From a virus: DNA of 41,208 nucleotides. The notes below the pieces were generated by a model. It was given only the letters and a program-made list of their open reading frames with translations. It was not told the DNA's origin and searched no databases. Positions 13,881 to 19,625 of this stretch are shown piece by piece. Numbering within the stretch: position 1 is the first letter of the stretch; each line of letters begins with the position of its first letter. The DNA lies in IMG/VR virus record IMGVR_UViG_3300042290_000974, positions 1 to 41,208 of that record. The stretch is one strand, 5' to 3'. The translations under genes and the position numbers were made by a program.

Positions 13881-14170
13881 TGGTAGCCGTGGTCGGACTC
13901 GAACCGACAAGCCAGTAACGGCAACGGATTTTCATACCACTATAGTTTTCACTACCCTTTCGGTTTGTGGTCTGGACTATACCTTGATCATAGTATCTCT
14001 ACCTTAGATCCTCGCCGTCTAGTCTCTACACCTTCCTAATTTCTTAGGCTTGGCTCGGGGTTAGCATTTTAAAGCCTTCACCGAATTTGACGAGTTCTAC
14101 TCCTATCTTTTCAAACAGGGCACTCAAATTTCTCTAAGTCCGCAATGTTTACCAATTTCATCACACGGCC
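13881..14170 (-). tRNA. tRNA-Leu(UAA) interrupted by a group I intron
   Basis: Exons are 14136-14170 and 13881-13932; the spliced tRNA is 87 nt. Acceptor GGCCGTG/CACGGCT, anticodon stem GCGGA/TCCGT, loop CTTAAAA (anticodon UAA), T-loop TTCGAGT, encoded CCA. The intron sits between the first and second anticodon bases, exactly as in cyanobacterial and plastid tRNA-Leu(UAA). A promoter of the GGAACT-N4-TATAAT class lies 22 nt upstream of the mature 5' end. Confidence 0.93.
13933..14135 (-). other. Group I intron (IC3-like) in tRNA-Leu(UAA), no ORF
   Basis: A 203-nt intron. The last exon base U pairs with G in the internal guide (exon ACUU with GAGU), as required for P1. Core strands resembling the cyanobacterial tRNA-Leu intron are visible: GCTAACCCCGAGCCAAG, TAGGAAGGTG, AGAGACTAGACGG, and the P7 3' strand TATAGTCC; the intron ends in G. 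It is too short for a homing endonuclease, though an HNH gene lies ~5 kb away. It should self-splice. Confidence 0.9.
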
Positions 14171-14192: not shown

Positions 14193-14208
14193 ATTATAAG
14201 CTAGTTCC
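14193..14208 (-). promoter_or_regulatory. Early-type promoter of tRNA-Leu (GGAACT-N4-TATAAT)
   Basis: Exact match: GGAACT, AGCT, TATAAT. The downstream gene is an RNA, so this motif cannot be a translation signal, which supports the promoter reading for the whole set. Confidence 0.8.
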
Positions 14209-14258
14209 TTTAGATTTTCCACAGTAAGTTTCTGTCTGAGAGTGACAAGATGGAATAT

Positions 14259-18971: not shown

Positions 18972-19625
18972 TTATAAATTGTTCATACTCCCTCTCTTTT
19001 TTCCGTTTTGTGGAACAAAGTCGGGGAGATATTTAGAAAAAGATTTGACAAGATTGGGTTGTGAATGCTTATAACCTATTCTTTGAACACCACTAAACCC
19101 TTCCTTGCAGTATATATTATATAAATCACTAAGCTCTTTTTGTTTGTTTAATAGATTGAGCTGCATTTTTTGTTGTCTTTGTTTCTTTTTTGCTTCTTTT
19201 GCTCTGACTGTATGATATGAAGCAATTCTTCCTCTCTCCCAACCTAGAGGTATTTGTTCTATTGTTTTTGCTTCCTCAATACCGTTAGTAATCCAGAAAG
19301 TTCCCGATTGTGAATTATTTTGACCACTTTGTGATGCTGATTGAGCTTTACTAAACTTTCTTCTCAACCAGCCATACATTTTGTTGTTTAGCCTTTTAGG
19401 TATCATCATTGCAGCAGCTCTAATTAGTTTATAATTATTTGGATTGATCTTAACTAATAATTGATGCGCTATATAATGCTCTTCTGGTGTGAGGCTAACA
19501 AGATTACTTTCTTCATCGGTACCTCCCATACATCTCGGAATGATATGGTGCTTTTCTTTATAGCCTTCTAGAACTCTTTCTCTTCCTCTTTCTATGAGTT
19601 TATTATAGATTAGTTCGTAATTCAT
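18972..19625 (-). CDS. HNH homing-type endonuclease
   Basis: A 217-aa protein. KHHIIPRCMGGTDEESNLVSLTPEEHYIAH (residues ~25-54) is a clear HNH motif. A middle Ser/Gln-rich linker and a TFWITNGIEEAKTIEQIPLGWERGR block are typical of phage free-standing homing endonucleases. It sits between tRNA-Thr and tRNA-Asn, a common location for such selfish genes. It could relate to spread of the tRNA-Leu intron in trans, but that is speculation. Confidence 0.85.
   Translation of the reverse strand: MNYELIYNKLIERGRERVLEGYKEKHHIIPRCMGGTDEESNLVSLTPEEHYIAHQLLVKINPNNYKLIRAAAMMIPKRLNNKMYGWLRRKFSKAQSASQSGQNNSQSGTFWITNGIEEAKTIEQIPLGWERGRIASYHTVRAKEAKKKQRQQKMQLNLLNKQKELSDLYNIYCKEGFSGVQRIGYKHSQPNLVKSFSKYLPDFVPQNGKKRGSMNNL

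Follow-up and report, generated by a model that had tools for sequence, protein, structure and literature searches.

The stretch of DNA analysed here, hereafter the window, comprises all 41,208 nucleotides of the viral record IMGVR_UViG_3300042290_000974, and its minus strand carries, between positions 13881 and 14170, a tRNA-Leu(UAA) gene interrupted by a group I intron. ARAGORN run with introns allowed placed a tRNA-Leu(taa) with a 203-nt intron at c[13881,14170], the intron lying between gactt and aaaat, and in its default mode (no introns) the same program missed the tRNA-Leu at 13881-14170. The Rfam group I model RF00028 matched the minus strand at 14145-13951 over its full length (model positions 1-253) with 60.6 bits against a gathering score of 50 (E 4.2e-13). 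Both results bear out, exact to the base, a sequence-only reading of this region, which had proposed the interrupted tRNA-Leu(UAA) at 13881-14170 and named a covariance-model search as its check. The 5' exon (14136..14170) comprises the acceptor 5' strand, the D arm, the anticodon 5' stem and C32, U33 and U34; the intron, IC3-like, occupies 13933..14135, and the 3' exon (13881..13932) comprises A35, A36, A37 and A38, the anticodon 3' stem, a long variable arm, the T arm, the acceptor 3' strand and CCA. As the anticodon loop reads CUU/AAAA, the insertion bond is U34^A35; the last U of the 5' exon pairs with a G in P1, giving a U.G pair at the splice site, and the final base of the intron is a G. 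Splicing is predicted to yield a tRNA of 87 nt in which the variable arm is long and CCA is encoded. The largest ORFs across the intron have 27 and 32 codons, thus the window intron holds no endonuclease gene; the earlier reading had stated that it has no ORF. That reading had also placed the gene under a phage promoter: a promoter-like TGGAAA-17-TATAAT does lie 23 bp upstream of the tRNA (14193..14221, minus strand), but this is a consensus match only, and 15 such matches in the region against 10.1 +/- 3.8 in shuffles are not clearly above chance.

The surroundings of the gene are those of a phage. One protein of the contig is a virion protein of T4 type (phrog_1645, 465 bits); across 69% of its length it shares about 66% identity with proteins of T4-like Synechococcus phages. 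The contig also carries sugar-nucleotide genes and genes for an exonuclease and an endolysin, as well as ten more tRNAs and a tmRNA, the phage tRNA cluster that had already been recognised from the letters. UUA is the commonest leucine codon in the longer ORFs of the window (32% of leucine codons), so that a tRNA with the UAA anticodon should be useful and should be spliced. The phage tmRNA (12287-12680, minus strand; Rfam, 120 bits) specifies an unusually long tag of 29 amino acids, GKAKNVVNAIFGRGSRNESFVGGELALAA, and the tags of the relatives L054 and L267 differ from it. A 217-aa protein is encoded between tRNAs at 18972-19625 (minus strand); its N-terminal part (HHIIPRCMGGTDEESNLVSLTPEEHYIAHQLLVKI) resembles an HNH homing endonuclease, and it had no Pfam match at 0.001.

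Helices P1 to P9 were drawn on the window sequence and pairs were counted in an alignment of 40 diverse phage tRNA-Leu introns. Standard pairs filled 93.7% of 2045 cells, against 77% in shuffles and 26-39% in slid controls, and double-sided compensatory cells numbered 373 against 117.7 shuffled, a direct observation of a fold that is conserved and covaries. P1 (14122..14139; all elements are on the minus strand) joins ACUUA across the exon/intron boundary (14139-14135) with the guide UGAGU (14126-14122), with the U.G at the 5' splice site, and three of its five pairs, the U.G among them, are invariant across the 40 introns; by inspection a P10 is possible, the UUU preceding the guide GAG being complementary to AAA of the 3' exon. 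P3 (14011..14094, formed by 14094-14089 and 14016-14011) encloses P4 (14085-14081 / 14058-14054), P5, P6 and P6a, shows double-sided changes in six of six pairs and is paired in 97.9% of cells. P7, where group I introns have their guanosine site, forms a pseudoknot with P3 (13975..14024, formed by 14024-14020 and 13979-13975) and lies around P8 (14010-14007 / 13989-13986); P7 and the outer P8 helix are paired in 100% of cells, and one P7 pair covaries between A-U and U-A. P9 (13936..13971, formed by 13971-13967 and 13940-13936) surrounds a GAAA-capped hairpin, the inner hairpin having compensatory changes in 4/4 pairs, and omega-G is at 13933. The U.G splice-site pair and the terminal G are invariant in 40/40 rows, all of which also have a GNAA-type L9 hairpin, and the GAAA loop of L2 is at least 90% conserved in this alignment. 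In Azoarcus, L2 and L9 are GAAA loops and P8 is receptor-like; by eye, UCUAAG...UAUGA in the window P8 resembles CCUAAG...UAUGG; the regular-expression count of such receptors (3/40) comes from an unreliable pattern. One U.C mismatch (U66/C87 in the aligned window row) adjoins P4. Judged from its sequence, the window intron has the core of an IC3-like ribozyme, its P1-P9 fold is complete, and it should splice.

Introns of this kind are widely distributed in phages and bacteria. A pattern that begins at the S strand and ends in the 3' exon matched at least 119 viral and at least 119 bacterial stretches, and an R-strand pattern at least 119 viral ones; loci were recovered from these matches with ARAGORN and boundary rules, the scans being biased towards the pattern searched. 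Intron-bearing tRNA-Leu(UAA) entries came to at least 153 in the phage collections, a few of them duplicated, and to at least 110 in bacteria, where the carriers listed are Alpha-, Beta- and Gammaproteobacteria, Bacteroidota, Acidobacteriota, Chloroflexota, Planctomycetota, Armatimonadota, Bdellovibrionales and Bacilli. A search of plasmids gave partial matches only, with no intron-bearing tRNA-Leu recognised. Labels like Phe(GAA), Tyr(AUA) and Ser(AGA) that ARAGORN put on intron loci were rejected as boundary slips: the exons read CUU/AAAA, with the terminal G before AAAA.

Among named and very large phages, Agrobacterium phage Atu_ph07 (278 nt, overlapped by a short hypothetical CDS), a huge phage of 735 kb (205 nt) and another of 595 kb (700 nt, with an HNH gene) have unannotated tRNA-Leu introns that share the site and the family of the 203-nt window intron. 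Phage introns of the same family also sit in tRNA-Lys(UUU), Arg(UCU/CCU), Thr, Met/Ile(CAU), Asn and Ser, and two or three intron-bearing tRNAs occur on single contigs (L101, L292, L308). In L101, a 41-kb phage contig, there are three, which ARAGORN reads as Thr, Leu and Met. Two further cases may be mentioned. Gordonia phage Daredevil (L008) has an unannotated 238-nt group I-like intron in a tRNA-Lys(UUU) that adjoins the integrase gene and possibly lies at the attachment site. In a marine autographivirus capsid-gene region (L004, L006) a sequence resembling the window intron (75-88% over parts) lies between two 'capsid protein' CDSs, and L006 has two Rfam group I matches.

A bootstrapped intron tree of 132 sequences was built with IQ-TREE. 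Phage and bacterium labels change 17 times on it, against 41 times when shuffled (minimum 33), so that for the most part phage introns have descended within phages, exchanges being limited in number; the deep nodes of the tree are weak (UFBoot 32-86 on many steps). The exchanges can be seen as pairs. The intron cores of a 297-kb T4-like phage contig (L067), whose record encodes Gp23 and a terminase, and of a Schleiferiaceae bacterium (L244), where XerC-, RmlD- and transporter-like neighbours indicate a chromosomal setting, are 92.9% identical (UFBoot 100), and other phage/bacterium pairs stand at UFBoot of at least 96 (L005/L207, L032/L218, L142/L293, L276/Azoarcus). It is evident that the intron family has moved between phages and bacteria.

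Presence and absence can be followed directly in relatives. In three intron-plus/intron-minus pairs (L128/L376, L070/L346, L048/L367) the two phages match across the upstream flank into the 5' exon, after which the intronless partner continues directly with the 3' exon; all three concern UAA tRNAs with a short variable arm, unlike the window's tRNA. A search for an intronless form of the tRNA of the window found none, so that gain or loss is unseen at the window locus itself. Several phage and bacterial introns of the family contain HNH endonucleases (PF01844, PF13392). The earlier proposal that phages move this intron between hosts is hence borne out at the level of the family, by the phage-bacterium pairs, the empty sites and the endonuclease-bearing members, but not for the window copy. 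Phage UAA-anticodon tRNAs of 73-77 nt, with no long variable arm, were also noted both with the intron (L016, L023, L047, L070, L122, L128 and others) and without it (L346-L402). At one locus, contigs that are 96.5% identical over 5.4 kb have either a long-arm tRNA-Leu with the intron (L087) or a short-arm UAA tRNA with no intron (L352), an apparent tRNA gene replacement.

It could be argued that the whole intron-bearing tRNA gene was taken fairly recently from a bacterial host, the intron itself being immobile. Exon and intron distances do correlate within phages (r=0.37), thus the intron has in part spread simply by being inherited along with its tRNA, and a viral contig (L037) and the bacterium L244 have nearly identical exons, with intron cores 88.6% identical. 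For the window, however, the closest bacterial core among the matches listed reaches only 75% (L214, Rhodobacteraceae); moreover, alike introns occur in differing tRNA bodies and anticodons, as in L059 and L062, whose introns are 93% identical while their tRNA-Leu exons differ by 37%, and relatives have intronless alleles at the same phage locus. We consider such a recent capture unlikely.

Descent from the cyanobacterial and plastid tRNA-Leu intron, acquired from a cyanobacterial host, appears less likely still, and by a good deal. The sequence-only reading had suggested this kinship, and it was correct as to the insertion bond, which is U34^A35 in both, in an intron of IC3 build; besides this common bond and fold class, the resemblance of the virion protein to those of Synechococcus phages makes a cyanobacterial host possible. 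Nevertheless, core identity to Anabaena, the single cyanobacterial sequence compared and only a reference point, is 57%, against 75% to the best bacterial introns among the matches listed, and a clade of the window with this lone sequence was rejected (AU p=0.029). Of 50,697 phage records, none matched an Anabaena query at E<=1e-5, nor did any viral contig match an R-strand pattern based on one cyanobacterial sequence. Introns at U34^A35 of tRNA-Leu(UAA) were found by the bacterial pattern scan in many other phyla too. The tree with bacterial tRNA-Leu introns, by which the kinship was to be judged, placed the window intron in a phage cluster in both versions built, with L054, joined by L101 and L267 in the larger, and apart from the sole Anabaena reference, so the proposed kinship is not supported. 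Given one cyanobacterial sequence and the weak deep nodes, we limit our claim to this, that nothing here speaks for an origin in cyanobacteria; the cyanobacterial link is, on these comparisons, one of shared site and fold only.

That the intron is decayed and no longer splices, leaving a dead tRNA gene, is similarly improbable. The endonuclease gene is absent and the U.C mismatch stands beside P4; on the other side, the core helices are all intact in the window and under compensatory selection in relatives, the tRNA exons are intact with CCA present, the tRNA fits the commonest leucine codon, and there is little change among L086, L054 and L101. An assembly chimera or host contamination, conceivable for a 41-kb metagenomic fragment, is excluded in practice, because an independent contig (L086), which over 13.2 kb spanning the locus agrees with the window at 98.8% identity, has the identical tRNA and intron, so that the locus is not an assembly error, and because the window encodes a virion protein of T4 type and an endolysin.

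Taken together, it is highly probable that the window holds a working IC3-type group I ribozyme in a phage tRNA-Leu(UAA), a small and endonuclease-free member of a mobile, phage-borne lineage. In the precursor tRNA both exons would be held by the guide strand, the 5' one through P1 and the 3' one through P10. Exogenous GTP, as expected from the intron class, would attack after U34, and U34 would then attack behind the intron's terminal G, joining the exons. The predicted junction, ...GGACUU-AAAAUCCG..., would be that of a normal UAA tRNA reading UUA. The lineage would enter the anticodon loops of phage tRNAs by homing, presumably through the HNH enzymes of relatives, and recombination, and it would have been exchanged several times with bacterial tRNA-Leu genes. 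The broader proposal, which we think somewhat likelier to be true than false, is that phages are a large and long-lived reservoir of IC3 tRNA introns, which hop between anticodon loops with HNH enzymes and have passed repeatedly, in both directions, between phages and bacteria.

In textbooks the tRNA-Leu(UAA) introns figure as 'ancient' introns, and their patchy distribution in bacteria is usually ascribed to unspecified horizontal transfer. If the reservoir proposal is true, phages would be a main vehicle of this horizontal spread, long noted and unexplained; the empty sites, the copies with endonuclease genes and the near-identity of phage and bacterial copies make such a vehicle testable. 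Furthermore, since ARAGORN in its default mode misses intron-bearing tRNAs, phage tRNA counts are probably low where these are missed. The bacterial tRNA-Leu(UAA) IC3 introns (cyanobacteria, plastids, Proteobacteria, Bacteroidota, Acidobacteriota, Planctomycetota and others) agree with the window intron in gene, bond (U34^A35) and fold, and like it they are short (about 200-250 nt) and usually free of ORFs; unlike them, the window copy is phage-borne, lies in a tRNA cluster and falls in sequence among phage introns.

The IC3 intron of Azoarcus tRNA-Ile(CAU), for which crystal structures exist, has an R strand, AAGGTGTAGAGACTAGACGG, identical to that of the window, and helices and GAAA-capped hairpins in common with it, but it sits in another tRNA at another anticodon position, and its core, in the single reference sequence compared, is 55% identical. 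An intron on a phage contig (L276) is a close relative of this Azoarcus sequence (UFBoot 100).

The known phage group I introns, those of T4 td, nrdB and nrdD, SPO1, Twort and S-PM2 psbA, sit in protein genes. Like the family described here they are phage-borne and self-splicing, a property that we predict for the window intron, and some have HNH enzymes; the window intron differs in lying in a tRNA gene. A 2014 review stated that the phage introns observed so far were all in protein genes, despite the many phage tRNA genes (PMC3984707). The word intron is absent from a survey of viral tRNA genes (PMC6409571), the Atu_ph07 paper makes no mention of introns (PMC6102473), and in a 2025 group I intron database IA2 makes up more than half of viral introns (PMC11835236); as our search covered openly licensed papers, an earlier description elsewhere is possible. 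A known class of ribozyme thus proves to be widespread in phage tRNA genes, the very setting denied to phage introns by the 2014 review (PMC3984707).
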